From: an uncultured Pseudodesulfovibrio sp.
GTDB taxonomy: Bacteria; Desulfobacterota; Desulfovibrionia; Desulfovibrionales; Desulfovibrionaceae
Direction of reading: 5' to 3'
Assembly: GCF_963677845.1 (NCBI RefSeq)
Contig: NZ_OY782498.1
Span: 2,425,518-2,489,517, forward strand
Length of the DNA stretch: 64,000 nt
Positions 14,708 through 60,727 of this stretch are shown here, piece after piece. A program made the translations under genes and the position numbers. Within the stretch, counting starts at the first letter, position 1, and each line of letters begins with the position of its first letter. The notes below the pieces were generated by a model. The model had not been told where the DNA came from. It worked only from the letters and a program-made list of their open reading frames with translations, and made no database searches.

Positions 14708-14921
14708 GTGGAGTTCCCGAAAGCAGTATGTTCAATGCTATATGAATAAATATGATGTGACCCGCCACCTTCAAGATGTCTAGTCTTTTCAAACAAAAAG
14801 ATTCAACAAATCAGCAAACAATACTCGATGTTTCAAAAAAAACTTTCATTTTTCACTCGTATTCACACAATTTACCTTGACGATACTCACACTCAATATG
14901 ACTTCCCATATAAGTCAAAAA

Positions 14922-14953
14922 AAGAAGGAAAGCCCAAACAGACTTTCCTTCTT
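14922..14953 (-). terminator. Terminator of the membrane glycan protein gene
   Basis: AAGAAGGAAAG and its complement form an 11-bp stem with a 10-nt loop; on the minus strand seven T follow. It is about 100 nt after the gene at 15053. The rest of the 345-nt gap holds nothing I can name. Confidence 0.8.
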
Positions 14954-15052
14954 CATGTGAAAGCCACAATTTTTTCACAACCGACTAATGTCAACTATCT
15001 AAAACGTCGACATAATCATATGCCCAATCACGACGGTGTCCTCAAAATTCTA

Positions 15053-16498: not shown

Positions 16499-17003
16499 AA
16501 TTTCCTTTTATTCAAAAAAAAGAACACTTTCAGATAACAAGAAAAGTGCATTAAAATTTAAACGACCAAAAAGTATCTATATAATTTCGCAAAACGTCAA
16601 CGCCTCACGTTCCTGCTGAAAAAGGCAAACATTAGTAATGACGCTCAATTCATTATTATCCTTAAAACAAAAGAAGATAGACTAACAAAAAAGGACGTCC
16701 GCCTCCCCTAGGTTTTCAAGGGGTACGCACATTTCATTTGTGCAAACCAATATCTCGACAAGACAGTTGAACATTGACTTGCCTGCAAAGTTGCCACACA
16801 ATTACCAAGGCCGTTCAAGCAAATGGGACATAATTGCTCAAATCATCAGGTCGCTTCTCAAACGTTTTATTAGGCTACAAAAACACAAACAAACATATTG
16901 AGAAAAGCGATATCATACGGCATAACGGCACAAAAAAAATCCCAGTACTTTCAATATGAAGCATATAAACGACTTATAAAATGTATGCCCACACATAATT
17001 GAC
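16499..17003. other. AT-rich divergent intergenic region
   Basis: About 505 nt of AT-rich sequence between two divergent glycan genes. No gene, RNA or strong hairpin is visible; it should contain promoters for both sides. Confidence 0.5.
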
Positions 17004-17936
17004 ATGAAAAACAAAAAATTCAGTGTAGTTATTCCTGTATACAACAGTGCCAAGGTCGTTTCTCTCACGGTAGAACGAGTTCGTGCCTTTTTTTTAAAAC
17101 ACGATTTTTCATTCGAAATAATTCTCGTGAATGACGGAAGCCCCGATAGCAGTTGGGATGTTATTTCCGAGCTGGCACAAAAACATGAAGAAGTCATCGC
17201 GATTAATCTGTTGAAGAACTATGGGCAGCACAATGCCAACCTGTGCGGTTTTCGTGCCTCATGCGGGGACTACCTCATTACTATGGATGACGATCTGCAA
17301 AATCCCCCTGAAGAAATCATCAAACTGATCGAGACCATCGAACAGGGATATGATTTGGTTATCGGCAAATTTGAGAAAAAAGAGCACTCCTTGTTCCGTT
17401 CTCTGGGCAGCAAAACCATAGGGCACATTATTCGTAAAGTCTTTCGTGTCAAAGACAATCTCATCCTTAGCAATTTCAGAATAATTCGACGAGATGTTGT
17501 TGACCGTGTGTGTGAAGATACATCTGTCACCCCATACATTCCAGGGCTTGTCCTTTTATACTCCGTCAATAGATGCAATGTCCTTGTCAAGCACAATGCC
17601 CGTGAATATGGAACCAGCAATTACAACCTCGTTAAGTTGGCAAGACTGGTAATGACCATACTCTTTAGTCATTCCACAATCCCGTTACGCTACGCAGCAG
17701 GATTCGGTTTCATAGCATCCATCATAATCTTCTGTCTGGGCCTTTTTTACTTAATTAATGCCATCTCCAGCGGTTCTGGTGTGCCGGGCTGGCCAACGTT
17801 AATAGTTCTCCTATCTTTTTTTAGCACCATTACCATCACATTACTTAGCATCATAGGTGAGTACATCATTCGACTACTTCGCGAGACTCACTCTTCCCAA
17901 AGTTATATCATCACCAAGATTGTAGGCAAAAAATGA
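17004..17936 (+). CDS. Polyprenyl-phosphate glycosyltransferase, family GT2 (ArnC/DPM1-like)
   Basis: A 310-residue GT2 enzyme that probably transfers a sugar from a nucleotide donor to undecaprenyl phosphate on the cytoplasmic face. The GT-A domain has FSVVIPVYNSA at the N-terminus, VNDGSPD (about 41) and the metal-binding MDDDLQNPP (about 93). Two C-terminal membrane helices (about 230-255 and 265-290) are typical of ArnC/GtrB proteins. It overlaps the next gene by 4 nt (ATGA). Two small DMT proteins in the same operon could be the matching flippase. Confidence 0.88.
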   Translation: MKNKKFSVVIPVYNSAKVVSLTVERVRAFFLKHDFSFEIILVNDGSPDSSWDVISELAQKHEEVIAINLLKNYGQHNANLCGFRASCGDYLITMDDDLQNPPEEIIKLIETIEQGYDLVIGKFEKKEHSLFRSLGSKTIGHIIRKVFRVKDNLILSNFRIIRRDVVDRVCEDTSVTPYIPGLVLLYSVNRCNVLVKHNAREYGTSNYNLVKLARLVMTILFSHSTIPLRYAAGFGFIASIIIFCLGLFYLINAISSGSGVPGWPTLIVLLSFFSTITITLLSIIGEYIIRLLRETHSSQSYIITKIVGKK

Positions 17937-44673: not shown

Positions 44674-47436
44674 TCAACGCGCAGGATAATCAATTCTGAC
44701 AGAACACGCCTTGTATTCGGCTGTGTCCGAAATCGGGTCTGCGGCTGAGTTTGTAAGCCAGTTCGAATTGTTTTTGTAAAAATGAAAAGCCATCCAGACC
44801 ATTCCTCTAGGGACTTCATCCGTCACACGCGCTCGAACGGTAATGGTACCGCGCCTTGAGGTGAGCTGAATCATTTCCCCTGTCTCAAATCCTAGAATCT
44901 TTGCATCTTCAGGCGCAATATCGACGATCTCTTCACTGAGCAATTCGTTGAGGCCAACTGCGTTGGCCGTCTGCGAACTGCAATTATAATGATAAAGTCT
45001 TCTGCCTGTGCTCAGGATGAAAGGATACTCCTTGTCTGGCGTTTCCGCAGAAGGTGTCCAATCAATGGCTTGAAAGTGGGCTTTCCCCTGTTTGAATTTG
45101 ACGTCACGGAACAAATGAGGCGTATCCTTAAACAAATGAGGAGTGCCGGGGTGCAAGGAATGTGGAACCGGCCACTGCAATGATTCATTTTCCAATCGAT
45201 CATAGGTAATTCCATTCAGCATCGAGCACTGTGGAGCCATTTCATTATCCCAAATATCCTGAGCACTGGAGGATTCCCAAGTGTCTCCCATCCGCTTTGC
45301 CAGTTCACGAAAAATCCACCAATTGGGTCGAGCTTCACCAGGAGGAGGAGAAACCTTACGAACACGATTCACCCGACGTTCCGTATTGATAAATGTCCCA
45401 TCATCTTCGCTCCAGGCAGCAGATGGAAGGACCACATCCGCATATTCGGTCGTCTTTGTGGGGAAGATGTCGTTACACACCATAAACTCGGCAGAGGAGA
45501 GACACCCGTGGACATGGTGCATATCAGGCTCGGTTGTTGCCGGATCTTCACCAAAGACATAAAATCCACGGACTTTTTTCGTTTTCAGGCCTTCGAGCAT
45601 GGCGGGAAGCCGCAACCCCTCATAGCCAAGGAGATTGCCAACATTCCACGCCTTCTGGAACTTCTTGCGAGCAGCCGGGTTATGCACCTTCTCATAGCCG
45701 GGGAAGGAGTCCGGCAATGCTCCGGCATCACATGCGCCCTGAACATTGTTTTGCCCCCGCAAGGGGTTAACGCCCCCACCGGGTATACCAATGTTCCCAA
45801 GCAACAATTGCAGATTTGCACAGCTGAACACATTATGAACACCAGAGGTGTGCTCTGTAATACCAAGCGTATATATAAGCATTGCCGGTTTCGATTCAGC
45901 TAATAGCCGTGCGAGATCGACGACTTGTTCAGCTGGCACTCCAGTGACCTTTTCGGCCTCCTCGGGAGTGTACCTGAGTACGGTTTCCTCAAGCTCATCA
46001 AAACCATCAACCCACTGCTCTACGTAATCTTTGTCATACAGATTTTCCGTGATCAAAACATTCATTATGGAATTGATCAGCGCGACATCAGAACCGACTT
46101 TCAGCCGCAAGTGCATATTCGCCCATTCTGTAAGCTTGGTCGCCCGAGGGTCCACGACAACCAGTTTTGCACCTTTTTGCACGGCATTATGAACAAACGT
46201 CGCAACCACTGGATGGGCTACAGTCATGTTCGAGCCGATAACGAGTATTGTGCTCGCCTTTTCGATATCTTCAAAGTTATTGGACATTGCACCGGAACCA
46301 AGCATTGTCGTCAGACCGACGACCGATGGAGCGTGTCAGGTTCGTGCGCAATGATCGATATTATTGGTGCCGATGGTTGCCCTGAAAAGCTTCTGCATGT
46401 TGTATGAATCTTCGGTAATGCTTCGAGCACAACTCAAACCAGCAATGGAATCCGGCCCGTACTCGTCGCGAATCTCCATAAATTTGGACGCTACAAGATC
46501 GAGAGCCTCGTCCCATGACGCCTCCCTAAATTCTCCATTCTCCTTGATAAGCGGTGCTGTCAATCGATTTTTGGAATAGATAAAATCATATCCAAAGCGG
46601 CCCTTCACACACAATCGTCCCTTATTGGGCTCAATATTCTCATCGGCTGTGACTTTGATGATCTTTTCGTCTTTAACGTGAAGGATCAACTGACAACCAG
46701 TCCCGCAATATGGACATGTCGTCTGGACTTTTTTGACTTTTTTTTTGGTTATCCCAAGTGCTTTCTTGTCGAAAAGAGCCCCAACAGGACACGCTTCAAT
46801 GCATTGCCCGCAATGGGTGCATTTCTCCATGTCAACAGAAGGATGCCACGTTCCATTAAAAGAATGGCGGGAAATAGCGCTCTGCCCAATGTCCTGACAA
46901 GTCGCGATGCATTGACCGCATTTGATACAACGACTGTAATCTCGAGCAATAAACGGAGAACGATTGTCAACAACCGGCGTTTCAATTTCCAAGGGAACAT
47001 CCCTAACAGGCACCTTGTGCTTCCCTGCCATTTTTTGAAGAACACATGCTCCTTTTGCCGGGCATTCATGATCGTGCCATTCCAAATCCCTGGCTTCAAG
47101 ATGGCCGGGTGCGCATTTCCCTTCCGGCAGCTTGGCTGTAAAACAGTTGTGCGCCCCAGTAGAAAAGATGGACGTCAATTTGCTTTTTCGCGCCTCAAAA
47201 ACTTTGGGAGACTCAGTTGTAATATTCAACCCTTCCACGGCAAGCGTTGTCGATGTCGATATCAACTCTCCCGTATCGACATTCTCGGCGACACTGAGTT
47301 CACAACTGTCGTCGCAATAACAGGTCTCGCTTTGGCACAATGTCGGGATGCTGATACCTGCTTGAGATGCAGCATCCAAAAGCGTCTGATTCTCTCTAAA
47401 TTCCACTTTCTTATTGTTAATAATAACGTGTCGCAT
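44674..47436 (-). CDS. fdhA: Formate dehydrogenase catalytic subunit with selenocysteine
   Basis: A 920-residue molybdo/tungstopterin enzyme that oxidises formate to carbon dioxide. The frame is interrupted only by an in-frame TGA at 46336-46338 (codon 367) in IDHCART-U-HAPSVVG, exactly where formate dehydrogenases have selenocysteine. A SECIS hairpin follows at 12 nt. N-terminal parts are a NuoG-like [2Fe-2S] domain (TLLDAASQAGISIPTLC), two ferredoxin clusters (CIKCGQCIATC, CTHCGQCIEACP) and the catalytic [4Fe-4S] site (CPYCGTGC). The C-terminal molybdopterin-binding domain is complete. It is leftward after a zinc-ribbon gene; in the formamide locus it would dispose of the formate released by formamidase. 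No diaphorase or hydrogenase subunit is adjacent. Confidence 0.95.
46307..46323 (-). promoter_or_regulatory. Bacterial SECIS element in fdhA
   Basis: On the coding strand GTCGTC-GGTCT-GACGAC forms a 6-bp stem with a GGTCT loop, starting 12 nt after the TGA. The E. coli fdhF SECIS has an apical loop containing GGUCU at a similar distance. It should recruit SelB for selenocysteine insertion. Confidence 0.88.
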
Positions 47437-47494
47437 TGGATATCCTTTCTATTATCTGAGTAAAATTAATCAGTTTTAAACTCTTTGTGCCCGG

Positions 47495-48013
47495 CTAAGA
47501 CGCATGCTTTTTAAAAGCTGAAAAAAACATTTCCATGCAGTACTTCGAGCAAAAATCGAAACTTTCATCGATTCCACCTCCTGCGGGGACCTTGGTGAAA
47601 CTCTGCGCTTCATCGTCCACAGCGTTGAAACGCCTTCCACACTGATCACAAATTTTTATGTTGCTTGTAATAAAGGCACTGACACAATTTTCAGAACACA
47701 ATGGGATGTCCCCTTGAGTCTCACCGTAAATACGCCTGCCACAGACATGACAAAAGACAACTTCATCAGGCGCAGAGTTCAAGGCCCCACCGCATAAAGG
47801 ACAGAAATTTGAAGGTCTGGATTCCATCGTATGATGGCAGTGCGGACAACTTGAACGCAAAGCTGTTTTGCACTGAGGGCAAACAGAGGGGGCTGTAGAA
47901 TCTTCCACCTCAATTGAAAAAACATTGAAATACGACGCTGGCTCGTGCTTCGTATTCAAATGAGGACAACGAGGGTTAGGGCAATACATATAAGTCGAGT
48001 GGTCTTTTTCCAT
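47495..48013 (-). CDS. Cysteine-rich multi-zinc-ribbon protein
   Basis: A 172-residue protein with at least five zinc-knuckle pairs: CPNPRCPH, CPQCKTAL, CPHCHHTM, CPLCGGAL, CHVCGRRIYG, CDQCGRRF and CSKYCMEMFF. No enzyme domain is visible. It sits 58 nt before fdhA on the same strand. Zinc-ribbon accessory proteins such as FdhE help mature formate dehydrogenases, but I see no real FdhE similarity, so a maturation or metal-handling role is only suggested by position. Confidence 0.75.
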   Translation of the reverse strand: MEKDHSTYMYCPNPRCPHLNTKHEPASYFNVFSIEVEDSTAPSVCPQCKTALRSSCPHCHHTMESRPSNFCPLCGGALNSAPDEVVFCHVCGRRIYGETQGDIPLCSENCVSAFITSNIKICDQCGRRFNAVDDEAQSFTKVPAGGGIDESFDFCSKYCMEMFFSAFKKHAS

Positions 48014-48046
48014 GGCATAACTAATCTTTCTAAGAGTTGATGAAAA

Positions 48047-48082
48047 AGGCTGGAGGTGAATGAGGCGATTAACCTCCAGCCT
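48047..48082 (-). terminator. Terminator after the urea channel gene
   Basis: AAGGCTGGAGGT and its exact complement form a 12-bp stem with a 12-nt loop; on the minus strand TTTTTC follows. It lies between the channel gene and the zinc-ribbon/fdhA genes and may reduce read-through into them. Confidence 0.8.
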
Positions 48083-48150
48083 TCATAAAAGCCGATCGAT
48101 ACCTTTGGTGCAGCGAGATGCTGTTCACCCCAAAACTACTTTCTCCAAAG

Positions 48151-49143
48151 CTAAGGGTGTTTCAGATTGCTTTCGGGCGTACCAAGCATCTCCGCAGGAA
48201 CCGCGGCTATATGACCAAAACCTTTACTCGCGAACATGAACATCCAGGTGACCATGACAAATGGCCACGTCAACGACGGCATACCGATGGGAGCAAGGAG
48301 TACACTTATGGATGCCTGGGCTATGGAGCCGACAACCATGCAGAATGTTGCATAGAGAAATGTTTTCCAATTGAGGTAATAAAAAAGCCCGCCCAGTGCG
48401 ATGGCACACAGCACCGAGTTGTAGCCATACAATCCAAGACGAAGCGGCGCTTCAGGAGACTGCATAACCAAAGCGGTCAACAGGCCAATTAAAGAGCCAA
48501 AGATCGCAAAGAATGCGGATATTCTGGAATTAATGAGAATGGCTATGACAAAAATAATTCCGGTAACGATGCTGTCCTCGAACATGACTTCGCCTATGCC
48601 CTTGGTTACACCTTCCATAAATGTCATAACTGAGATTTTACCAACCACAATCGAAGTGTGCGGATCAGGGATTGAAGTTGCCAATAATGTTCCAGCCTCC
48701 AGAAGACCAAACTTGGAGGCACAGAACATGAGAATCCAGGTGGCGAAGACAAAAGGGGCTGTCAGAGCAGGCATGCCCCACTTGCCCAGAAAATTGATAA
48801 GCGCACTCATGATAATAGTGCTCAAAGCGGCGTTGATAACCACGTAAAACAATAATTCGGGGCTACAAATAAAATAAAAAGGCAGTGCGATACCCGCGAG
48901 TGTTCCGTTAAATCCGAACAACCCGGCCTTGATAAGACCTTTGTCCGCGCCAAGCGCTATGGCCGTCAATGTTGATGCGGCAGTCCCCAGAACAGCACAG
49001 GCACCTAATTCCCATGAATTATAGAATATTCCTATAAAAAATATAAAACCGGTCACGGGGTTGTTCTGGAACATGACCTGCCCACATCCGCGCAGGCATG
49101 CGTCTACAAATTGAAATAACGGATTGTTTTTTGGCGCTTCCAT
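48151..49143 (-). CDS. Urea transporter-family channel (probable amide/urea uptake)
   Basis: A 330-residue membrane channel with two homologous halves, as in Desulfovibrio vulgaris dvUT (about 337 residues). Both halves carry the UT signature: [13 protein letters not shown] and [13 protein letters not shown]. Such channels conduct urea and small amides. No urease is in the window, and the gene sits with fmdB and formamidase, so formamide is the more likely cargo here (inference). It follows fmdB by 40 nt, with AAGGAGA upstream. Confidence 0.9.
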
Positions 49144-49183
49144 GATCGTTACATCTCCTTAAATGGTAATGGGCGGGTGGCGT

Positions 49184-49417
49184 TTATACCGTTTGAGCTT
49201 CCAGTTCCTTTTTGAGTTTGTCGCGCTCCTGAGATTTATGCATGGCGCTCATCATGTTTTTCATCCAATGATCAGCATGACGATACGATGTAAGAGAAAT
49301 GTATCTGCGCGTATCAGCTGAGCCACAATGAACGCAGGGAATTATCTCATCGCTTGAGTGAGCAAGTGTCTCAAAATCTGTGTCGCAGCCGTTACAATGC
49401 AGTTCATAAATTGGCAT
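49184..49417 (-). CDS. fmdB: FmdB-family zinc ribbon protein
   Basis: A 77-residue protein starting MPIYELHCNGCDTDFETLAH, with a CxxC...CxxC zinc ribbon (CNGC, CVHC) and a helical charged tail. The family is named after FmdB, encoded with formamidase in Methylophilus methylotrophus and reported as a regulatory protein. It is the first gene of the leftward unit fmdB-urea channel and has a sigma-54-like promoter and an activator site upstream. GGAGAAG precedes the ATG. Confidence 0.88.
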   Translation of the reverse strand: MPIYELHCNGCDTDFETLAHSSDEIIPCVHCGSADTRRYISLTSYRHADHWMKNMMSAMHKSQERDKLKKELEAQTV

Positions 49418-49450
49418 AGTCTTCTCCGTGAAAAGGTTGTGGCCTTTTCA

Positions 49451-49468
49451 TTGCGACAACCATACCAA
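49451..49468 (-). promoter_or_regulatory. Sigma-54-like promoter of fmdB
   Basis: On the minus strand TTGGTATGGTTGTCGCAA has the GG-N10-GC core; two of the less conserved -24 positions and one -12 position differ from TTGGCACG-N4-TTGCA. It lies 34 nt upstream of the fmdB start, and an activator palindrome lies about 170 bp further upstream. Confidence 0.55.
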
Positions 49469-49625
49469 CTTCAAAAAAATCGGTAAACGTCTGTTTATTA
49501 AAGATAAATTTCTTAAATTATGATAATATTCAAAGGAAAGGGGTACAATAAAGATTGTTGTTTTATGGACCCAAAAGAATGAAATGCGAGCCATAAGGGC
49601 TGAGGCCTTACAACAAAATCGGTGG

Positions 49626-49643
49626 CTACAATATAACTTGTAG
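49626..49643. promoter_or_regulatory. Activator site CTACAA-N6-TTGTAG upstream of fmdB
   Basis: A perfect palindrome of two 6-bp arms with 6-bp spacing. The same sequence with the same spacing occurs twice in tandem before formamidase. It lies about 190 bp upstream of the predicted fmdB transcription start, a normal distance for an NtrC-type enhancer. Confidence 0.7.
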
Positions 49644-49710
49644 GAGTTGCTTTGCCGTAATCAACAACGTGCATTGAACAATCGCAGGAGACGCTTTAGA
49701 GGACAAAAAA

Positions 49711-49750
49711 ACGCCAGAGTAACACCACAATAGAGGGGTTACCCTGACGC
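49711..49750 (-). terminator. Terminator of the two-component genes
   Basis: On the minus strand GCGTCAGGGTAAC pairs with GTTACTCTGGCG-type sequence (with wobble pairs) and seven T follow, about 70 nt after the activator gene. It separates that operon from fmdB. Confidence 0.75.
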
Positions 49751-49820
49751 ATAAAATAAATTTCTATTCTTTAAAGGTTAGGCAAAAAGCCTTAATGTTC
49801 TCGATGAGGAAGAAGCGTCG

Positions 49821-51254
49821 CTAACTACTCATCTTCTTTAATTTCAGACTCAATGATTGTTGTGAAATACCGAGTATTCGCGCTGCGGCACTCTGATTCC
49901 CGCCCGACCGTTCCATGGCTGTATTTATAAGTGTCGTGGATATCTTTGAGACAACTTCCTTAAGCGGGGGAAGACTTTCCGGCGGAAAATTCACAGTGTC
50001 CCATGAAGCGGTCTCTTCAACATGAGGGACCACTCCCCCAAGTGAATCTTCGCTCTGAATATGATTCTTGAAACTGGCGGAAGACAGCATGCGTGAACAA
50101 TGCTGGCTCACGGCATCGCTTGCCATGGCTTTCAACTCTCGGACATTCCCGGGGAATGAGTATGTCCGTAAAAAGTTCAGAAGTTCAGGGTGATATGCAG
50201 GCTTCTTCTTGCCTTGCTCAGTTGCTTCACATTCCAAGAAATAATCCAAAAGCAGGGAGATATCATCAAGCCTTTCGCGCAATGGAGGGAGCGTAACCTG
50301 ATGGCCGACAAGTCTATAGTAGAGATCTTCCCTGAACTTCCCTTCTTGTTTCAAGGTGGACAAATTCTTCAGTGTTGATGTCACGACACGAACATTGGCC
50401 TTTTTCGGAAGGTCAGAACCAACCGGGAAATATTCTTGCTCCTGCAACAATCGCAAAAGTTTCACCTGCGAACTCAGGCTCAGGTCTCCAATTTCATCAA
50501 GAAACAGGGTGCCTCCATTGGCCTGCTCGACCAACCCTTTGCGCGCCTTATCTGCGCCGGTAAATGCCCCACGCACATGACCAAATAAAGAATCCGCAAA
50601 AACCGGATCATCAAATGCAGCCACATTCACTGCCACAAATTCTCCGCAGCGCATGCTCAGATGATGAATGGCTTGAGCGATCAACTCCTTGCCTGTTCCG
50701 GTTTCCCCTGTAATCAAAATGGGATTCTGACTACCAGCCACCGCTTCACAATATTTGAAAATAGAAAGCATTTTGGAGTTTTGCGTAAGAATCTTTGAAA
50801 ACATTTCCGGGTGTTTCAATTTCGTTTCAAGAATTTGTTCACGCAGTCTGGCATTTTCCTGCTCCATGTCCTTGAATTCAAGAGTACTTCGTACCCGTTT
50901 TGCCAGTTCAGTCTTATCTACGGGTTTAAATAGATAATCTCTGGCCCCGTCCCTCATACATTGGATCACTGATTTCCCATCGCTGACAGCTGAAATAATA
51001 ATAATTGGGAGCCATGGATACTTTTCCTTGATCATCTTCAGTAGAGCAGGCCCCCCGATGTGAGGCATCACCAAATCAAGTAAAACAAGGCTAAATTGTT
51101 GTTTTTCCATTAACGACATAACTTTTCTACTGTCTTCACAGGTGATTACATTTGAGTAACCAGATGCATACAAAGCTATTTCAAAACTTTGCAACGCTGA
51201 TTTCTCGTCGTCAACAACAAGAATAGGATGTGAAGGGCACAAATGATTTTTCAT
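49821..51254 (-). CDS. NtrC-family sigma-54-dependent response regulator
   Basis: A 477-residue activator. The receiver has VVDDEKSALQSF and the phosphoacceptor Asp60 in LVLLDLVMPHIGG. The AAA+ domain has Walker A GETGTGKE (about 183), the sigma-54 contact loop GAFTGA in GHVRGAFTGADKA (about 230) and Walker B GGTLFLDEIGDL. The C-terminus is a Fis-type helix-turn-helix (NQSAAARILGISQQSLSLKL). It lies 28 nt after the permease-kinase gene, its obvious partner. The palindromes CTACAA-N6-TTGTAG before fmdB and formamidase are its likely binding sites. Confidence 0.93.
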   Translation of the reverse strand: MKNHLCPSHPILVVDDEKSALQSFEIALYASGYSNVITCEDSRKVMSLMEKQQFSLVLLDLVMPHIGGPALLKMIKEKYPWLPIIIISAVSDGKSVIQCMRDGARDYLFKPVDKTELAKRVRSTLEFKDMEQENARLREQILETKLKHPEMFSKILTQNSKMLSIFKYCEAVAGSQNPILITGETGTGKELIAQAIHHLSMRCGEFVAVNVAAFDDPVFADSLFGHVRGAFTGADKARKGLVEQANGGTLFLDEIGDLSLSSQVKLLRLLQEQEYFPVGSDLPKKANVRVVTSTLKNLSTLKQEGKFREDLYYRLVGHQVTLPPLRERLDDISLLLDYFLECEATEQGKKKPAYHPELLNFLRTYSFPGNVRELKAMASDAVSQHCSRMLSSASFKNHIQSEDSLGGVVPHVEETASWDTVNFPPESLPPLKEVVSKISTTLINTAMERSGGNQSAAARILGISQQSLSLKLKKMSS

Positions 51255-51282
51255 AACTCACCTCATTTACGATCTATTGTAA

Positions 51283-54200
51283 TCAATTGGAGCCTGTGAA
51301 AGACAAGGTTACGCATGTTCCTTGCCCCTCTTCTGAATCAATAAAAATATCACCGCCATGCTCCTTGATAATTCCCGCTGAAACAGACAACCCAAGCCCA
51401 GTCCCACCCCACTCTCTTTTTGTCGTATAAAAGGGATCCCTAACGTGCTTAAGGTCTTTCTTCGAAATACCGATTCCCTGATCTGTTATTTTGAAATAGA
51501 CCTTTTCTTCTATCGCGTAGGTCTCAATAAGAATGGAATCTTCCCGCGATTTCAACGCTTGACAGGAATTTTGGATCAAATTGACAAGAACTTGTTCAAT
51601 CCGACGCAAATCACCTTTGAACGAAGGCAAGCAATCGTTGATACTTATGACAAAGTTGTCCGTACTATTTTTAATGAGATTGGTAAGCAGCATGTGGGCA
51701 GATCTGAAGGCCTTGTTGATATCCACATCACCACCCATTTTGACGGGAGATTGTCTGGAATAATCTTTCAAGTTTCGGACGATGGTTGAAACACGATCAG
51801 ATCCTTCATTAATGCCGAGAAGCAATTTGGGCATGCTTTTCTGCACATAACTCAAGGGCAAATTTCCAATCCAAACCTCTTCACCCTCTTCATTCTGTTG
51901 CCTGAGATATTCCATCATACCTTGCCAGATCTCATCCATTGTCTGAGAATTCAGGCTGATGAGATTCAAAGGATTATTGATTTCATGAGCCATGCCAGAA
52001 ACAAGAATTCCAAGAGATGCCATCTTGTCGGCCTGATGCAAAGATTTGTAGCTCTGTTCCAATTCCTTGGTCCGCTTCTGGATTTTCCCTTCAAGACTCT
52101 CATTCAATTCCTTCAACCGTTGCCTGTTTTCCTTCAACGCTTTATCGGCTTTCTTCTGTCGATTGATGTCGTTGAGAAGCCAGATGACACCTTGGCTGGG
52201 ATTGCCGGAATCAATGGCGCTGATGGAGAGTTTGCGCCACTCACTCTCTGTTTGGTTCATTTTCAACGGTATTTCGCAATTAAAATGTCTTCCCTGTCTC
52301 AGAAAATTTTCAGAATCTCTTTCGATTCTTGAATATAAAGTCTTATCAAGAAAAAGGTCTTTTGTTGCAATTGGCCTTTTTGTACCTTTTGGAACAAAGC
52401 AAATTTCAAGGAATCTATTATTACACCATTTCAATTTTGAATTAACGATAAATGCAATACCAATCGTTGCATTCTCCAATATCATTTTTTGTTGTTTACT
52501 CGTCTTATTCAGCTTTTCACTGATCCTCTTACGAGCATGGACTTCTTGCTCCAATTCATCAATTTGAATGGCAAGTTCTTCCTCCACTTCGATTCGCCGT
52601 TCTTGAATCAAAGTAAACCACCAAACCCAAACAGCAATAATAAGAAGTGTAAAAATATATATTGTTATGACGTACCATTTAAAGTTGTGCCATATTTGAT
52701 AATCAGTGTGCTCTGAAAGAAACACACTAGAAGAAAAGACTACACCAAGGACAACAGAAATAATGAGATAATGTTGAAGAAATCTTTTCGTTTTCTTCAT
52801 GAAAGCTTCTTTTGGTGAAGGAGTATACTGCCTTTGCTTCTTTGAACTATTTTCTTCACATTTTCCGCCGCACACACTGTCAAGTACACAACACAAAGAA
52901 CAAATATGGTTATCACGCATGGGGCAATAAACCATTTCACTTTGTCCATATTCTTTTTCACAAATTGGACAAGTCATAAGAGCATCACTCTGTAAAATAG
53001 TATTTTCTCGGCGAATATAATATTTACCTTTGGTAATAATGGCGACCAAAGGTGCAACGGTAAATGCAACAGAAAATGCAATTAATGTTGAAAATGATTT
53101 CCCATATATTCCAAATGAACCAAAATATGCAGGAATGGCTACAGCAAGTGAAACGACAAGAGAAATAATACCCACAGGGTTTATATTATAAAGATATGCC
53201 CGTTTGTATTCGATAGTTCTTGGGGCAATCTTGAGAGGCTTAATGACAGTTAAATCAGCAACAATAGTACCAATCCATGACAATGCAAATATGGCATAAA
53301 TGAAAAGCATGGAATGCATTGTCTTGAATACCCCCAATTGCGCAAAGAGAATTGACATGAGGATATTAAACAGAAGCCACACAGCCCTTCCCGGATGGCT
53401 TCCTGTTATTCTTGAAAAGAAATTCGACCATGCGAGAGACCCGGCATAGGCATTCGTCGCATTAATTTTTACCTGACATATTACAATATATAGAGTGACT
53501 AGCAGCAATGCATACTGTGGATTATCAATTACTGTATCAAATACGTTGAGATAAAGCTGAACAGTATCAATACTTTCACTGCTCACGATATTTCCCGCCT
53601 CTATGAACAAAACAACGAGAAAAGCGCCGCAGAGAATTTTCAAAGCACCGATTATGATCCATCCAGGCCCGGCAGTAAGCACAGCCAACCACCACTTATA
53701 TTTATTTTCATCTGTTTTATCGGGAAGAAAACGCAAATAATCTACCTGTTCACCGATTTGTGGAATCAATGAAAACAGTACAGAAAGGGCTGAACCGAAG
53801 AGAAAGGGATCAAATGAGCCAGTTCCAACATGATTTTCGTATGAAACCCATCGGGTGACACTGGTAGGGTCTTTAAAAATGATAATAGCTATGGGAACAA
53901 TCCAAAGGACCAGCCAAAGAAATTGCGTATAGTTATGCAGCTTATTAATGACCGTAATGCCATAAAATGAAAAAGGGATGATCACCAACGAACAAAGCAG
54001 GTATCCAATAGGTAATGGTATCCCAAAACAAAGAAATACCGCTTGCGCCATGATCGTTGTTTCAATGGCAAAAAAAATGATCGTAAAGAAGGCGTAAATA
54101 AGTGAGGTAATTGTGGAGCCGATATACCCGAAACCTGCTCCACGAGTAAGCAAATCGATATCAATATTTTCTTTTGAGGCATGATAGGCAATTGGAATAC

Positions 54201-54446
54201 CGGTGAGAAAGATCACGACTCCCAAGGATAAAATTGCCAAAGAGAATTGGCAAATCCGTAATTTATAATAAGTAATGCACCAATTGCTTCCAAAGCAAGA
54301 AATGAAATCCCACCAAGAGCCGTGCTGGCTATCTGCCATTCCGGCCACCGCCTGAACGACTTGCTTACACGCCGAAGGGAAAAATCTTCAATGGCCGTAT
54401 TGGTGACTAACAGGTTGTATGTTCGCTGCTGCCTGGATGTATTCAC
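51283..54446 (-). pseudogene. NCS1 permease-histidine kinase fusion, one-base frameshift near the N-terminus
   Basis: If repaired, a 1054-residue sensor. The N-terminal 480 residues are an NCS1 (nucleobase/hydantoin/purine-cytosine) permease with about twelve helices. A cysteine-rich linker follows (CPICEKEYG, CPMRDNHICSLCC, CGGKC), then two more helices, a coiled coil, a PAS-like domain and a kinase core (GMAHEINNPLNLI; GGTGLGLSVS). Translation starts at a GTG (54444-54446) with GAGG upstream. After 69 codons (ending LLIINYGFANSL) the frame breaks at 54239-54241, where the coding strand has CTTTGG; one more T would give ANSLLAILSLGVV, the normal NCS1 sequence. So either the fusion is inactive, the sequence has a homopolymer error, or a -1 shift occurs. 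It is upstream of the NtrC-type regulator and probably senses an amide. Confidence 0.85.
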
Positions 54447-54843
54447 AATCTTACCTCAATCTTCCTGACAGTCCGAAAACTTCACAGAAAGACTCAAACT
54501 TCTTCATTCAATCTCGTACAATCACGAATCCACGTCTTTCATCCGTAAAATATTTCGTCATTTTGAAAACCATTTCATATAAAGACGCCTCCTACTTTTC
54601 AATCTGACGCGTATCCGCATATGCAAAAGACAGCCCAATGATCTCCATCATAGATTTAACGTCATAATTCACACATAATTTCATGGTTTCACGAGACAAA
54701 ACACATATTAAATCACCAAAGCTATACCAGAAGCACCTTAAATCATTGATGAAAAAAGACTGTTATTCTTAATGTGAATTTTACTTCTTTTCAAGCTCTT
54801 CACATAAAAAAAGACTTTCATTTAACGCAACAATCCAGAACCC

Positions 54844-54879
54844 CTACAAGTATCATTGTAGCTACAATTGTCCTTGTAG
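54844..54879. promoter_or_regulatory. Two tandem activator sites before formamidase
   Basis: CTACAA-N6-TTGTAG occurs at 54844-54861 and again, directly abutting, at 54862-54879. The pair is centred about 190 bp upstream of the predicted formamidase start of transcription. The rest of the 684-nt gap (54447-55130) shows only the sigma-54 promoter. Confidence 0.8.
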
Positions 54880-55022
54880 CCAAAATGATCGCTTTGCTAC
54901 GGGGATTTTTAAGAATCACACCCGTACGAACACCACAATATTTGTAGGTTGGAAGTCTCGAATTATATTAGTTTTTTGGATATAATACTGTTTTTTCAGC
55001 AATTTAGATGCAGAAATAAACG

Positions 55023-55039
55023 TTGGCACGATAATGGCT
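55023..55039 (+). promoter_or_regulatory. Sigma-54 promoter of formamidase
   Basis: TTGGCACGATAATGGCT has a full -24 element (TTGGCACG), the GG-N10-GC core and a one-mismatch -12 element. Transcription should start near 55050, about 80 nt before the ATG. Confidence 0.8.
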
Positions 55040-55130
55040 CTAAGGCAATGAGCGCTCAAGAGTTTCTGTATTAAAGATTGCCAATATTCGCGATCTTCAT
55101 AGCAATTCACTAATTAATTGGAGGTTTTAA

Positions 55131-56135
55131 ATGGGAAGCATCGGCAGCATGAATCGTCCGACTGAAGGTATGCTCATGGGTTTGGTCCAATACCCTGTAC
55201 CCATTGTTAACTCGCGCCGCGACATCGAAGCAAACATCGACAGAATCTGTGAAGCCACAGTGAATACCAAAGCTGGTTATCCTGGCATGGATCTGATCGT
55301 ATGGCCTGAATACAGCTCACAAGGCCTGAACACAAAGAAATGGGTCAGTGATGAATTCCTGCTTGATGTCGAAGGGCCTTTGTTCCAGCGTTACGCTCAG
55401 ACTTGTAAGGAAAACGATATCTGGGGCCTGTTCTCTCTCATGGAGCGCAATCCCAACAAAGATCAGATGCCTTACAACACGGCTGTCATCTTCAACAACA
55501 AGGGCGAACTTGCCCTGAAATATCGCAAACTAAATCCTTGGGTTCCCATTGAGCCTTGGATGCCCGGCGATCTCGGCCAGCCCGTATGCGATGGTCCCGG
55601 CGGCAGTAAGCTTTCCGTCTGCATCTGCCATGACGGTATGTTCCCCGAGCAAGCTCGCGAAGCTGCATACAATGGTTGCAACGTTTACATCCGCATCTCA
55701 GGTTACAGCACTCAGGTCAACGACCAGTGGATGCTGACCAACCGTTCCAACGCGTGGCAGAATCTGATGTACACCGCATCCGTTAACCTTGCCGGTTATG
55801 ATGGTGTCTTCTACTACTTTGGCGAAGGTCAGGTTTGCAACTTCGACGGCACTACCATCCAGCAGGGTCATCGTAATCCTTGGGAAATCGTCACTGCTGA
55901 GGTTTTCCCGAAGATGGCAGATCAAGCCCGCAAAGACTGGGGCCTGGAAAACAACATTTACAACGTCGGTACCCGCGGTTACGTGGCCGTTCCCGGTGGA
56001 GTAAAGGAATGCCCTTACACATGGATCAAGGATTTCGCCAAGGGTGAATACAAATTGCCTTGGGAAGACGACATCAAAATCAAAGACGGTTCCATTTATG
56101 GATACCCGACAACCGGTGGACGCTTCGGCCTCTAG
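55131..56135 (+). CDS. amiF: Formamidase AmiF
   Basis: A 334-residue nitrilase-superfamily enzyme, equal in length and very similar to Helicobacter pylori AmiF. It hydrolyses formamide to formate and ammonia. The catalytic triad is present at the same numbers: Glu60 (WPEYSSQ), Lys133 (YRKLNPW) and Cys166 (CICHDGM). The N-terminus (MGSIGSM) and C-terminus ([13 protein letters not shown]) match the family. TTGGAGG precedes the ATG. It is controlled by a sigma-54 promoter with two upstream activator sites and ends at a strong terminator. Confidence 0.95.
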
Positions 56136-56580: not shown

Positions 56581-56844
56581 TGCGGGCTTTGTATAGTTTG
56601 AAATCATTGGCTAATTTTTCAGGCGGATAACATTTTTTGGCGAAAAGCGGGAATTTTGTGCTGTGGAAGGTTATCCAAACAACGATACTCGTTAGCCGGT
56701 CACCCTTAACTGCCACTTAATCTGTCCAACAGAGTAAAATACTTCTTGGCATGGAATCTTGGAGGGATATTTCTTTTGTAATTACATATTCGATAGTTGC
56801 ATCAAAGTGGTAGCGGTGATAAGTCGAATGAAGAGGTGTGGACG

Positions 56845-57528
56845 ATGGGATTTACAATTTATTTTGGGACTTCAAGTAACGTAAAGCTAGATCAGTATAC
56901 TGTGATTGGTTCTGATTATGGCATAAAAGTTGAACAAGGCGTTGTAGTATCAAGTGCTATGTTAGAACCACAATTGGACTCTTCATTGCCAGATGGTCTT
57001 TCTACAATAGTCACACATCCCCTAAAGCTATCTTCACGCTTTGTTGCTAGGAAAAGTCAAATTCCATATATGGTTGAAGACACAATGATGGTTGTGGACT
57101 ATTTTTCAAATAACAACTCTCAGGGGCAACTTGGATTACCTGGGCCTGACACCAAAAATTGGTGGCTCAACTTAGGAGCAGAAGGACTCTTACATTTGCT
57201 ATCAGGTGAGACTAGACGTTCAGCAAAATTCTATTGTCAAATAGGCATTTATTGCGGTCCAGGCATATACATAACAGATGAATTTGTAGTGAATGGCGAA
57301 ATTTCAAAATGTGTGCGATTTTCTAGTGCGGCAATAGACGACTTTCCTAGATCAAACCCGCACTACTTCCACTCTATTTTTATACCTGAAGGATCGGATA
57401 TGACTCTAGGAGAAATGCCATCAGCTATCTTTGAAAAATATGATTATCGTAGAAAGTGTTTTAAAAGTGTGATTTCTAAAATGAAATCAACTATAGCCCC
57501 CAACTCCTACCAGCTCAAATTGTTTTAA
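56845..57528 (+). CDS. Hypothetical protein, first gene of a three-gene island operon
   Basis: A 227-residue soluble protein without signal peptide or membrane helix that I do not recognise. It begins MGFTIYFGTSSNVKLDQYTV, is rich in beta-strand-like stretches and has the segment DTKNWWLNLGAEGLLHLL near the middle. I chose the ATG at 56845 with GAGGTG upstream over an earlier in-frame start. It is 4 nt before the guanylate-kinase-like gene, so the two are translated together. Base composition is AT-rich compared with the genes left of the tRNA remnant. Confidence 0.7.
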   Translation: MGFTIYFGTSSNVKLDQYTVIGSDYGIKVEQGVVVSSAMLEPQLDSSLPDGLSTIVTHPLKLSSRFVARKSQIPYMVEDTMMVVDYFSNNNSQGQLGLPGPDTKNWWLNLGAEGLLHLLSGETRRSAKFYCQIGIYCGPGIYITDEFVVNGEISKCVRFSSAAIDDFPRSNPHYFHSIFIPEGSDMTLGEMPSAIFEKYDYRRKCFKSVISKMKSTIAPNSYQLKLF

Positions 57529-57532
57529 AATC

Positions 57533-58072
57533 ATGTTGCTTGCACTTTGTGGACCTTCAGCAGTTGGGAAGGACAGTCGTTGGCTTAAAACGGCTATTGA
57601 GATGGGGTACAAAAAGATTGTACCATATACTACTAGAAAAAAACGAGATGGAGAAGTAGACGGGGATGACTATTTCTTTGTGTCAAAAAATGAGTTTATT
57701 AAAAGGATAAGAGAGAAAAAATTTTTGGTATGGGATTATATGCTGAATAATTTCTACGGAACATCAATAGATGCATTACCTAATATCATAGACGGCAAAA
57801 AATGTTGTATACAGATAAAAACAACGATGGCTGAAAGGATAAAATTATTAACAGGGAATGTCAGAACTGTATTTTTGATGCCATCAGAAAATGAAGTTAT
57901 TCTGAAACGCCTTAACAGTCGCAAATACACGCACGAGGAAAGAATAATTCGCCTTAATTACAATCTAGAAGAGATAGAACTGTCAGAATTGTGCGATGTG
58001 GTTATACCAAATGCTGACATTGTGACCAATCTAGACGCAAAAAGAATTTTGGGCGATATATTAGTAGGATAG
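57533..58072 (+). CDS. Guanylate-kinase-like nucleotide kinase
   Basis: A 179-residue P-loop protein. The N-terminal Walker A is GPSAVGKDS (family GPSGxGKST), and YTTRKKRDGEVDGDDYFFVS is the GMP-binding segment of guanylate kinases. The rest is divergent and slightly shorter than housekeeping Gmk (about 205 residues). In an AT-rich mobile region between an unknown gene and a dUTPase-like gene, it is more likely a specialised nucleotide kinase than the essential enzyme. Confidence 0.8.
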   Translation: MLLALCGPSAVGKDSRWLKTAIEMGYKKIVPYTTRKKRDGEVDGDDYFFVSKNEFIKRIREKKFLVWDYMLNNFYGTSIDALPNIIDGKKCCIQIKTTMAERIKLLTGNVRTVFLMPSENEVILKRLNSRKYTHEERIIRLNYNLEEIELSELCDVVIPNADIVTNLDAKRILGDILVG

Positions 58073-58079
58073 CATCGCT

Positions 58080-59167
58080 ATGTATACCAAAGAAAAAATT
58101 TATGCGCTAATCAAGTCAAATGATTTGTCAATTTCTTATCCAGACTTTGTTGACGACTTTACCGTCAACGAACTTCCTGTTGTATACGGAAGTGGTAATT
58201 TTGCGGGGAAATTATTTGAAGAGAATTACCATGGCGACAGATTGAGCGTAATGTTGGTCCTGTCGTAAAAAGCTTATCTCAAATTTCTAACAGTGAAAGG
58301 AAACAATTTAAAAACTATCCTTATTGCTTTGACTTAAGAAAAAGCAATGGTGAGTTTGTCATTAGGCCAAATGAAACAATTGCGATTCCGACTTTAGAAC
58401 GAATTAAGACAGGCAAAAGTGTTGGCGGTATCGTTTTGCCTAAACTTGCTTGTGTGGATGCCGGATTAATATATATACCGTCGTACATTGACCCTGAATG
58501 GGACGGTGTTCTTCAGGCGGTAATTGTTAACGCCACGACCAATTCAATAAAAATCAGAATGAATGAAAAGGTTGGGATAGTTAAATTCCATTCTGTTGAT
58601 GGAACTCTAGAGAGCAACTACAGGGAAGAGTTTATAAGAAAAAGCCACCATTACGGGCAAGGTTGGAAGCGAATCATTGAAGAAGATTTTAATCCGTTAC
58701 CGACCAAAAAGGACGTTCATTTATCAAATCATGGTGTTTTTTCATTCGCTAGGAGGCTTACTAAAAGCCTCAACATCAATGCCACTAAGATTTTGTCCTC
58801 AATCGGCATACTGTCTATTTTGTCAATGGTATTTTATGTTGGATATTATAGCAGGACCTTGTCACAGTTGTCTCTTGTTCCACAGCAAATCAAATCCCTC
58901 GAAAACAAAATGTCTTTGATACCAGAAAGTGAATCTTCTGAAATCCAAATAGGGAATAAAGCGGGCTCTGGGAAACACACTATTTACCTTGATAGTACAA
59001 TTAAACCAAAATTCGTTATTTTTCAGGTCAAAAATGGTAGTCCTGTTTCCGTCGTTGATTATTCAACAGTTAAGTCTGATGGCGGCAAGTGGGCTATTGT
59101 TGTTGATTTTGTAGTGACTGAGCCTCGTATTGATAAGGTTTTACTAGACTACATAGCTTTTTTTTAG
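58080..59167 (+). pseudogene. Membrane-anchored dUTPase/dCTP-deaminase-like protein, frameshifted
   Basis: Two overlapping frames together encode one protein. The first (ATG at 58080) gives 62 residues ending at 58268; the second is open from 58220 to 59167, with no good start of its own. Both flow into each other if one base is restored between 58220 and 58268 (around GACAGATTGAGCG). The joined product has a dUTPase-fold domain (RPNETIAIPTLERI, LACVDAGLIYIPSYIDPEWD, NEKVGIVKFH), then one membrane helix (ILSSIGILSILSMVFYVGYY) and a C-terminal domain of about 100 residues that I do not recognise. It lies 7 nt after the kinase gene. It could be a true mutation, a sequencing error or a programmed shift. 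Confidence 0.7.
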
Positions 59168-59401
59168 CCTACAGGCTTAAAAACGCTATTGCCACCAGGA
59201 CTTGCACTCGAGAATCCTCTTTATTAAACAGACAACTCGTGTGTAAATCACTTATAAATTAAATTAGAACAAGTATTGCCCATTTTTGAGCAGCATCTCT
59301 TTTCTTGCGAAGAATTAAACTCACAAAATCAATCCGCTCCTCCTGTACCGTCATTTATTCCGCCAAAGCTGGATGGCAACTCAATTGCTTCGACCTTCCC
59401 T

Positions 59402-60727
59402 TTACGCTATTCCGTATTTCTCCAACTTTCTGGCAACAGTCTGTCGGGTTACCCCAAGCTCTCCTGCTACGCCACTTTTCGAACCAACACTCTGCCAAGC
59501 AGCCTCGTAATACCGCTTCTCACATTCCTCTAGCTTGTCCTGTATCTTTACCGGCAACCGAATTGCTGAGTCTGAAGCTGGGAATGACTCAACCGTACGC
59601 AGATGTCTTTTGATAAGTTCTTCGATGGGCAACTTTGCATTCATAATGACCTGTTCGATGAACATCGAACACTCACGCAAATTCCCAGGCCATTCATAGC
59701 CCTTAAAACCCTCTGACATTTTTGCTGGCAAATTCAACTCCTCACCTAGTCGCTGGATAAGATACTGCTCCATTGTAACTCGCTGACCAGCCTCTCCCTC
59801 TCCTGCGGTCATTTTTTTTATAACAGTGGTCATTAGATGATCATAAGCATCGCGCGCTTGTTTTTCATTAAATGTGTTCAGGCTATTCGAAAAAGATGGG
59901 ATAGAAATGGAAGGCCTAGCAAGTCTGTAATAGAAATCACGCCGCATACCATCACCTTGCTCCAAACTCTCTACTCGCCTGTTTGTGACTGCAATAATAT
60001 GAACTCTTCTGGAAATCTTATCCCCGCATCCCACATGATTGTACTCGTTGTTTTCCAAAAAGCGTAACAGCTTAACCTGAGTATCTTCTTCGGCTTCTGT
60101 GATTTCATCAAGTATAACCACTCCACCATTGCCGACCTGCTTAAATACACCATCACTATTTATAGCACCTGTAAACGCTCCCTCTACGCTTCCGAAAAGA
60201 GATACTTCAAACACCTGCGCGTTTGAAGTTGCTGAATTTAACGTAGCAACATTCCCGTTTTGCAGCTCAAATGCTTTTGTAGTGTGATCTTTATTTTTGA
60301 CGACGGATTCAACATTGCGCTTTAGTGAATCTGCCACAAAACTAGCAATTCGCTCCTTGCCCACCCCTGTCATCCCAACAATCAAAAAGCGACGAGGTAT
60401 CATCTTTGACGTTAAAATTTCAACTAAAGGATCATCAGCGAAAACACTTCCTACAAGCTGATCTGTGAATGCCTTCGGGTACACCCACTTAATGCCTTCA
60501 ATGTTTCTACGATAATACAACGCCTTATAAAAAAAGCTCAAAACGCCTTCGAGAGGCAGTCGCTTCAAATAGCTCGGCGACACTTTGGCATTCTTGAGGT
60601 AAGTACAAACCGCTTCATTCACAAATTCATGTGCTTCTGCGAGTTCCTTACCTGTAGCTTCAACCGAATACGAAAGAAGAATCGGGTCAAGATTGGTGAT
60701 CAAATCTTCAGTAGTGAAATCCAGCAC
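59402..60727 (-). CDS. Sigma-54 activator-type AAA+ protein with unusual N-terminal domain
   Basis: A 441-residue protein. The first 95 residues are not a receiver, GAF or PAS domain that I recognise. The AAA+ domain follows, with Walker A GMTGVGKERIA (about 117), the sigma-54 contact loop GAFTGA in GSVEGAFTGAINSDG (about 177) and Walker B GGVVILDEITE. The C-terminal helix-turn-helix is of the Fis type (GVAGELGVTRQTVARKLEKY). Start is GTG with GGAG upstream. It is divergent from a sigma-54-like promoter driving the YaaW-family gene, which it probably activates. The 234 nt after it (59168-59401) show nothing. Confidence 0.87.
   Translation of the reverse strand: MLDFTTEDLITNLDPILLSYSVEATGKELAEAHEFVNEAVCTYLKNAKVSPSYLKRLPLEGVLSFFYKALYYRRNIEGIKWVYPKAFTDQLVGSVFADDPLVEILTSKMIPRRFLIVGMTGVGKERIASFVADSLKRNVESVVKNKDHTTKAFELQNGNVATLNSATSNAQVFEVSLFGSVEGAFTGAINSDGVFKQVGNGGVVILDEITEAEEDTQVKLLRFLENNEYNHVGCGDKISRRVHIIAVTNRRVESLEQGDGMRRDFYYRLARPSISIPSFSNSLNTFNEKQARDAYDHLMTTVIKKMTAGEGEAGQRVTMEQYLIQRLGEELNLPAKMSEGFKGYEWPGNLRECSMFIEQVIMNAKLPIEELIKRHLRTVESFPASDSAIRLPVKIQDKLEECEKRYYEAAWQSVGSKSGVAGELGVTRQTVARKLEKYGIA

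Follow-up and report, generated by a model that had tools for sequence, protein, structure and literature searches.

The window analysed here, 64,000 nucleotides of an uncultured Pseudodesulfovibrio (positions 2,425,518-2,489,517 of a genome assembled as one contig of 3,701,887 bases), contains a locus for the use of formamide. The locus is probably a dedicated, inducible regulon, run by an NCS1-like sensor kinase and an NtrC-type regulator through promoters that pair a palindrome with a sigma-54 element. The sensor domain of the kinase, which may derive from an NCS1-like transporter of small amides or urea, would detect formamide or a close small amide, and the kinase would phosphorylate the adjacent regulator. 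The regulator would bind copies of the core ACAA-N6-TTGT about 80-180 bp upstream and would activate sigma-54 RNA polymerase at amiF and at a unit of fmdB, the UT channel gene, the zinc ribbon gene znr and a formate dehydrogenase gene. UT would admit formamide, AmiF would convert it to formate and ammonia, and the dehydrogenase would oxidise the formate. The argument is built on sequence: gene content, promoter elements, palindromes that are conserved and rare, the joint presence of sensor and enzyme, a predicted fold, and amide or urea neighbours in other phyla. From these we infer the ligand, the phosphotransfer, the DNA binding, the direction of regulation, the extent of the operons and the fate of the formate. 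The genes are as follows.

55131..56135, + strand: amiF formamidase, nitrilase superfamily (PF00795), by profile score.
54213..54446, - strand: N-terminal part of the permease-kinase, in a separate frame with a GTG start at 54446; matches the start of intact relatives.
51283..54348, - strand: main frame of the permease-kinase, with NCS1-like membrane domain, Cys-rich segment, HisKA and HATPase (HisKA and HATPase_c by profile; domain fold from a relative).
49821..51254, - strand: NtrC-type response regulator (Response_reg, Sigma54_activat, HTH_8; GAFTGA at residue 229).
49184..49417, - strand: FmdB-type zinc ribbon protein (TIGR02605, 42.4 bits, cut-off 31.3).
48151..49143, - strand: UT-family urea/amide channel (PF03253, 324.3 against 25; TIGR03441, 287.8 against 274.6).
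47495..48013, - strand: double zinc ribbon protein, Znr (PF12773).
44674..47436, - strand: formate dehydrogenase, with an in-frame UGA at 46336-46338; both halves match TIGR01591.

AmiF scores 605 bits against the NCBIfam formamidase equivalog model (cut-off 406) and carries Glu60, Lys133 and Cys166, which we take to be the catalytic-type Glu-Lys-Cys set. Its nearest solved structure is 2dyu (E 7e-177), an H. pylori-type formamidase. The product of 55131-56135 is classed as an AmiF formamidase and is predicted to hydrolyse formamide. The UT channel is closest to 3k3f/3me1 (E 1e-137). The formate dehydrogenase frame is otherwise open when TGA is read as selenocysteine. The UGA is followed by a hairpin with the loop GGUCU, which we presume to resemble the E. 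coli fdhF loop; its folding is unexceptional (z 0.45; 136 of 200 shuffles fold equally well). A first-pass annotation, made from the letters of the window, had listed a formamidase, FmdB, a urea-type amide channel, an NtrC-type activator, a permease-linked kinase and a selenocysteine formate dehydrogenase, and this gene set is borne out by the profiles and the in-frame UGA. It had also described both transcription units as divergent. They do lie on opposite strands, amiF on the + strand and the kinase, regulator, fmdB, UT, znr and formate dehydrogenase genes all on the - strand, and each has a sigma-54-type element. However, amiF and fmdB share no single intergenic region; the kinase and regulator genes sit between them, and amiF diverges from the kinase gene.

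The control elements are listed below. The sigma-54 consensus used is TGGCAC-N5-TTGCW, and no strand is assigned to the palindromes.

54844..54861: palindrome CTACAA-N6-TTGTAG, exact, upstream of amiF (pattern search).
54862..54879: palindrome, exact, abutting the 54844-54861 copy (pattern search).
49626..49643: palindrome, exact, distal copy of fmdB (pattern search).
49543..49560: palindrome, proximal copy of fmdB, 2 mismatches outside an exact core; best conserved spacing.
55024..55039, + strand: sigma-54-type element of amiF, TGGCACGATAATGGCT, 1 mismatch to the consensus; same element in relatives.
49452..49467, - strand: sigma-54-type element of the fmdB unit, TGGTATGGTTGTCGCA, 3 mismatches here and 1-3 at the same place in relatives.

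Exact copies of CTACAA-N6-TTGTAG occur at three sites in the genome, all of them at the formamide locus; the reversed pattern, used as a control, has none. The three copies had been seen in the first pass, which allowed that the palindrome might be common in the genome; its exact form is unique to this locus. The copy at 49543-49560, the better conserved one, had been missed. When one mismatch is allowed, three extra sites appear elsewhere in the genome against 12 for the control. These are rejected as chance matches, and a wider regulon is therefore not supported. The palindrome starts precede the -24 element of amiF by 180 and 162 bp and that of fmdB by 176 and 93 bp; distances of 180, 162 and 176 bp are in line with the original estimate of about 190 bp. 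Taken alone, the window is weak evidence: it has five palindrome matches with up to two mismatches against 1.96 expected, and 7 of 100 shuffles reach five. Matches to the sigma-54 consensus number 32 against 38.7 expected, which is chance frequency. The case therefore rests on the genome-wide exact sites, on position and on conservation. Scans of the window for sigma-70 promoters (24 against 20.1 expected) and for terminators (8 against 11.7 expected) are both at chance level, no terminator is claimed between the regulator and fmdB, and Rfam at the gathering score and ARAGORN found no match in it.

Near-full-length relatives of the kinase are present in seven of 199 genomes of the order, the own genome included; the search scored four candidates per genome and could miss a lower-ranked full-length relative. 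A further 23 genomes match the kinase end alone. amiF (E 1e-80) is found in the same seven genomes and in no others; UT is found in five genomes without amiF. Relatives of the same genus (L034-L036) keep the whole locus, formate dehydrogenase included. Those of two other genera (L037-L039) have the order amiF, MFS carrier, fmdB, UT, znr, kinase, regulator, and L046 is built in the same way. At 16 of 16 amiF and fmdB promoters scored, from eight Desulfovibrionaceae loci, the sigma-54-type element has the core ACAA-N6-TTGT upstream of it; the outer bases of the palindrome vary among loci and the core is constant. At the position of the fmdB element, L036 has TGGCACAGTTGTCGCA, with one mismatch. 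There are 33 copies of the core in 19 regions (the 16 amiF and fmdB regions and three znr regions, selected because the core was already known there); shuffling gave 0.086 regions per set on average and never more than 2 (500 sets). The count leaves out L035, near-identical to L034, and L045, whose contig starts inside UT. The proximal fmdB copy lies 91-94 bp from the -24 element in all eight promoters, and amiF distances vary from 81 to 181 bp. L044 and L046, fetched after the motif was set, agree with it. A palindrome not conserved near amiF homologues, which the first pass had named as a point of doubt, is not what these loci have: the core is kept in the Desulfovibrionaceae loci examined, L044 and L046 among them.

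A two-part pattern, ACAA-N6-TTGT-N62..90-TGGYAY-N5-TNGC, has 15 matches in 12 of the 199 genomes. Ten of them fall in the seven genomes with amiF, each preceding amiF, fmdB or znr at the locus, and five are spread over the other 192; the reversed pattern has 11 matches, none in the seven. As the pattern was built from these loci, only its scarcity elsewhere is independent evidence. It is scarcely credible that AT-rich upstream DNA produced the sigma-54 elements and palindromes by coincidence. The window does have degenerate matches at close to the chance rate, but uniqueness, spacing and conservation across genera, GC-rich ones included, argue against this. The idea of a dedicated formamide-use locus stands, in that the sigma-54-type promoters, palindrome, regulator and permease-kinase are conserved together across species; it is amended as to the kinase, the formate dehydrogenase and the scope of the sensor.

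No match to the window formate dehydrogenase is found within 20 kb in L037-L039, and downstream of L045 there is a distant molybdopterin-enzyme match (26-32%) and nothing closer. The close formate dehydrogenase is a lineage-specific part, seen only in Pseudodesulfovibrio; an MFS carrier stands in other genera. The enzyme goes with the locus in the same-genus relatives but not in L037-L039, where the carrier is found. The carrier of L037 matches an L-lactate carrier model (415.8, cut-off 320), and matches to oxalate/formate models fall below the cut-off; formate export by it would be a guess. Znr travels with the Desulfovibrionaceae loci and is present in L034-L039 and L043-L046. A palindrome and element precede znr in L037, L038 and L046, but not in the window, L036, L039 or L045. 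In the three loci this promoter lies upstream of the kinase and regulator, which suggests autoregulation there.

Several observations weigh against a dedicated formamide regulon. The fmdB sigma-54 element of the window is weak when taken alone (3 mismatches). The promoter of znr is found in only 3 of 7 loci. The kinase reads as frame-shifted in the window strain. Among the other 24 Fis-type helix-turn-helix (HTH) sequences of the genome, one, SQPALSKRLKR (L127), is close to the recognition helix of the regulator. Lastly, of 14 kinase-bearing plasmid regions with relatives of the sensor, six have urea transport or urease and no formamidase in the stretch.

The protein of 49821-51254 has the make-up of an NtrC-type, sigma-54-dependent regulator, with a receiver, an AAA+ domain with GAFTGA, a Fis-type HTH and an adjacent kinase gene. 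All 9 of the orthologues compared share its recognition helix, SQQ[SA]LSxKLKK. It could be argued that the palindrome is the site of some other regulator (a global nitrogen control protein, FmdB or a paralogous regulator) and that the adjacent pair has other targets. L127 has a similar recognition helix, and FmdB-type proteins are described as putative positive regulators in the available text of two sources (PMC10781810, PMC13209695). However, the genome has no exact sites elsewhere, unlike what a global regulator would give, and the loci examined keep the motif together with the kinase and the regulator; a foreign regulator is improbable. The L127 paralogue lies at L132 3633-7168 (2,768,500-2,778,000 of the own genome), beside a PAS-type kinase without a transporter domain. 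By eye, its neighbours include aldehyde ferredoxin oxidoreductase-like and aminotransferase-like genes.

The main kinase frame (51283-54348) lacks its true N-terminus, which is encoded out of frame with the rest, at 54213-54446. Same-genus relatives hold the kinase in one frame, and alignment gives a one-base length difference. The first-pass description of a permease-linked kinase holds for HisKA, HATPase and the membrane domain; it is corrected in that the gene reads as frame-shifted in this strain and the sensor domain is NCS1-like. Induction may be lost in this strain, or there may be a sequence error. A recent pseudogene, in a locus that is uninducible or decaying, would account for the displaced N-terminal part and the one-base difference. 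This is less likely than not. Apart from the displaced part, the kinase frame is open, with 97% identity to intact copies, and no damage is seen in the other genes, the palindromes or the promoters of the locus; an error of one base in the sequence would look alike. The argument for a regulated formamide locus is built on the relatives and still stands.

Profile and PDB-sequence searches gave nothing for the permease domain, and its fold was therefore predicted. The model, made on a relative from an alignment of 13 of the 14 species-scan loci described below (L052 left out), is closest to CodB and Mhp1, which belong to NCS1. Three family members give no match to the NCS1 profile PF02133 even when E values up to 1 are allowed; a stand-alone relative, 41% identical, matches it at E 1.4e-9. 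With the fold found but PF02133 not matched, the domain is termed NCS1-like and is not filed as an NCS1 member. The stretch between the permease and kinase domains, where STAC would be expected in a kinase of the CbrA type, has no Pfam match and is occupied by the Cys-rich segment. The three Desulfovibrionaceae kinases scanned have no receiver domain.

Relatives of the sensor extend well outside the family. A scan of 84,980 species with two short peptide patterns, which must miss many, gave 14 loci. An amide hydrolase is near the sensor in 12 of the 14: amiF in three Desulfovibrionaceae, an amiE-like gene in a cyanobacterium and fmdA in eight Pseudomonadota, directly divergent from the kinase in all eight. 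The other two are L045, cut off inside UT, and L048, which has a second, stand-alone permease copy and for which no amide gene was found. A phylum-wide search found the sensor domain in two of 395 genomes (G000 and G049). It is also found in 524 of 72,556 plasmid records, 342 of them Klebsiella; among the matches listed with a gene name, most are called 'ATP-binding protein'. Sixteen annotated plasmid regions comprise 14 with a kinase and two with a stand-alone permease in a urease cluster. All 14 kinase-bearing regions have formamidase, urt genes or urease, and eight have formamidase. In the S. meliloti region there is only a cut urtA, about 8 kb from the kinase. It should be noted that these neighbourhood counts are raw, without a matched control set of other kinases. 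L057 was picked by its formamidase and the other 13 by the permease domain, and the set includes dependent pairs, L090 and L094 coming from one plasmid and L061 and L093 from close species.

AmiF (PF00795) and FmdA (PF03069) belong to different families. Since unrelated formamidases beside the sensor share a substrate, formamide or a close amide is taken as the signal; the six urea-only plasmid regions keep urea as a candidate. Together the neighbours point to a small amide or urea. The signal may instead be urea, or a broad set of urea and short-chain amides, with formamide use as one output of urea and amide nitrogen scavenging; this is a real possibility, though not the favoured one. It fits with 13 of the 14 annotated plasmid regions, in which the kinase has urtABCDE or urtA as a neighbour (L094 is the exception), with the stand-alone sister permeases in urease clusters, and with the UT channel family being a urea channel family. 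However, the gene shared with the sensor in the Desulfovibrionaceae loci is amiF, and tblastn with a urease alpha subunit found none in the 14 species-scan loci. The eight Pseudomonadota loci with fmdA divergent from the kinase likewise speak for formamide; UrtA-UrtD were not found there (E 1e-15).

In a midpoint-rooted tree of 32 domains, which leaves out L090 ORF 7604 (not permease-like), L052 and L093, 28 kinase-fused domains separate from the four that stand alone (100/98), and the Desulfovibrionaceae kinases fall into a single clade (100/100). In the simplest history, a small-amide transporter would have acquired a kinase first, and coupling to NtrC/sigma-54 would have come later, in Desulfovibrionaceae. 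The L058 kinase, the only one of the plasmid group scanned, is of the hybrid kind, carrying a receiver, and is partnered by a LuxR-type regulator. In urease clusters, the sensor domain has stand-alone relatives at L087 6947-8554 and L088 8947-10554 (Klebsiella and Acinetobacter plasmid records); they are annotated 'cytosine permease' and 'hypothetical protein' and are candidate urea carriers. Kinase-fused and stand-alone permease copies are side by side at L094 4287-10620 (Methylovirgula, next to fmdA) and adjoin at L048 336-5884 (a cyanobacterial contig). Such copies may be sensor-transporter pairs.

The components are known singly: formamidases accompanied by FmdB and amide uptake, two-component control through sigma-54, and fusions of transporters to kinases. 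The fmdCABDEF genes of Methylophilus methylotrophus are induced by formamide and urea and repressed by ammonia (PMC10781810). They resemble the window locus in having a formamidase, an FmdB-type protein and uptake genes, but use an ABC transporter and a porin where the window has a UT channel; the available text names a putative positive regulator and no sensor. CbrA/CbrB of Pseudomonas likewise joins a transporter-histidine kinase fusion to an NtrC-type sigma-54 activator (PMC8871633, PMC13022988, PMC7918813). As described in the portions of those sources available, CbrA has an SLC5/SSS domain that takes histidine, a STAC domain, and global carbon and nitrogen control, whereas the present kinase is NCS1-like and tied to one locus. 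In CrbS/CrbR and RpuS/RpuR a transporter-kinase also controls the use of one small substrate; the sensor is SLC5/STAC and the substrate is acetate or pyruvate. In the urtABCDE-formamidase plasmid clusters, formamidase or urea genes lie next to relatives of the sensor domain. These clusters differ in having a hybrid kinase (L058), a LuxR-type partner, FmdA or AmiF, and an ABC transporter; the window locus has a plain kinase and an NtrC-type partner. One source reports urtABCDE near fmdA together with a hybrid kinase and a LuxR-type regulator and, in the available text, gives no signal for them (PMC13296017). A 1131-aa kinase by urtA is likewise reported, in the part available, with no signal (PMC2907700).

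CodB and Mhp1 share the predicted fold of the sensor domain but are stand-alone transporters without kinase fusion. MetT is likewise stand-alone, unlike the sensor of the locus; the accessible portion of its report indicates that the substrate of an NCS1 transporter need not have a ring (PMC13390362). A literature search for an NCS1-type or amide-sensing kinase found none; subscription journals are poorly covered by it, which makes this weak evidence of absence. An NCS1-like transporter-kinase tied to amide use was likewise not found in the literature searched. We lean towards the view that NCS1-derived transceptor kinases are a second transporter-kinase class, apart from SLC5. In Desulfovibrionaceae, Pseudomonadota and Cyanobacteria they would be specialised for formamide, urea and similar amides, with LuxR-type outputs in some cases, NtrC/sigma-54 outputs in others and links to unrelated formamidases, and they may themselves transport the ligand.

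Formamide induction of formamidase genes is described with the sensor unnamed in the available text (PMC10781810); the locus offers a candidate, together with its cis-elements. That relatives of the sensor accompany unrelated formamidases in other phyla suggests a widespread, little-described form of small-amide sensing. If this is true, there is a second transporter fold among transporter-kinase fusions, and the evolution from transporter to switch could be compared between two origins. The stand-alone sister permeases of urease clusters would become candidates for urea or amide uptake.

Some other genes lie close to these loci. Beside amiF, the window at 56797-60727 encodes a Ham1-like protein (PF01725), a guanylate-kinase-like protein (PF00625) and one ORF without a match. 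An unusual sigma-54 activator, with AAA+ and a Fis-type HTH and no receiver match, is encoded at 59402-60727. In L038, two adjacent ORFs downstream of the formamide locus (13318-17355) look by eye like Cas3-type HD helicases.

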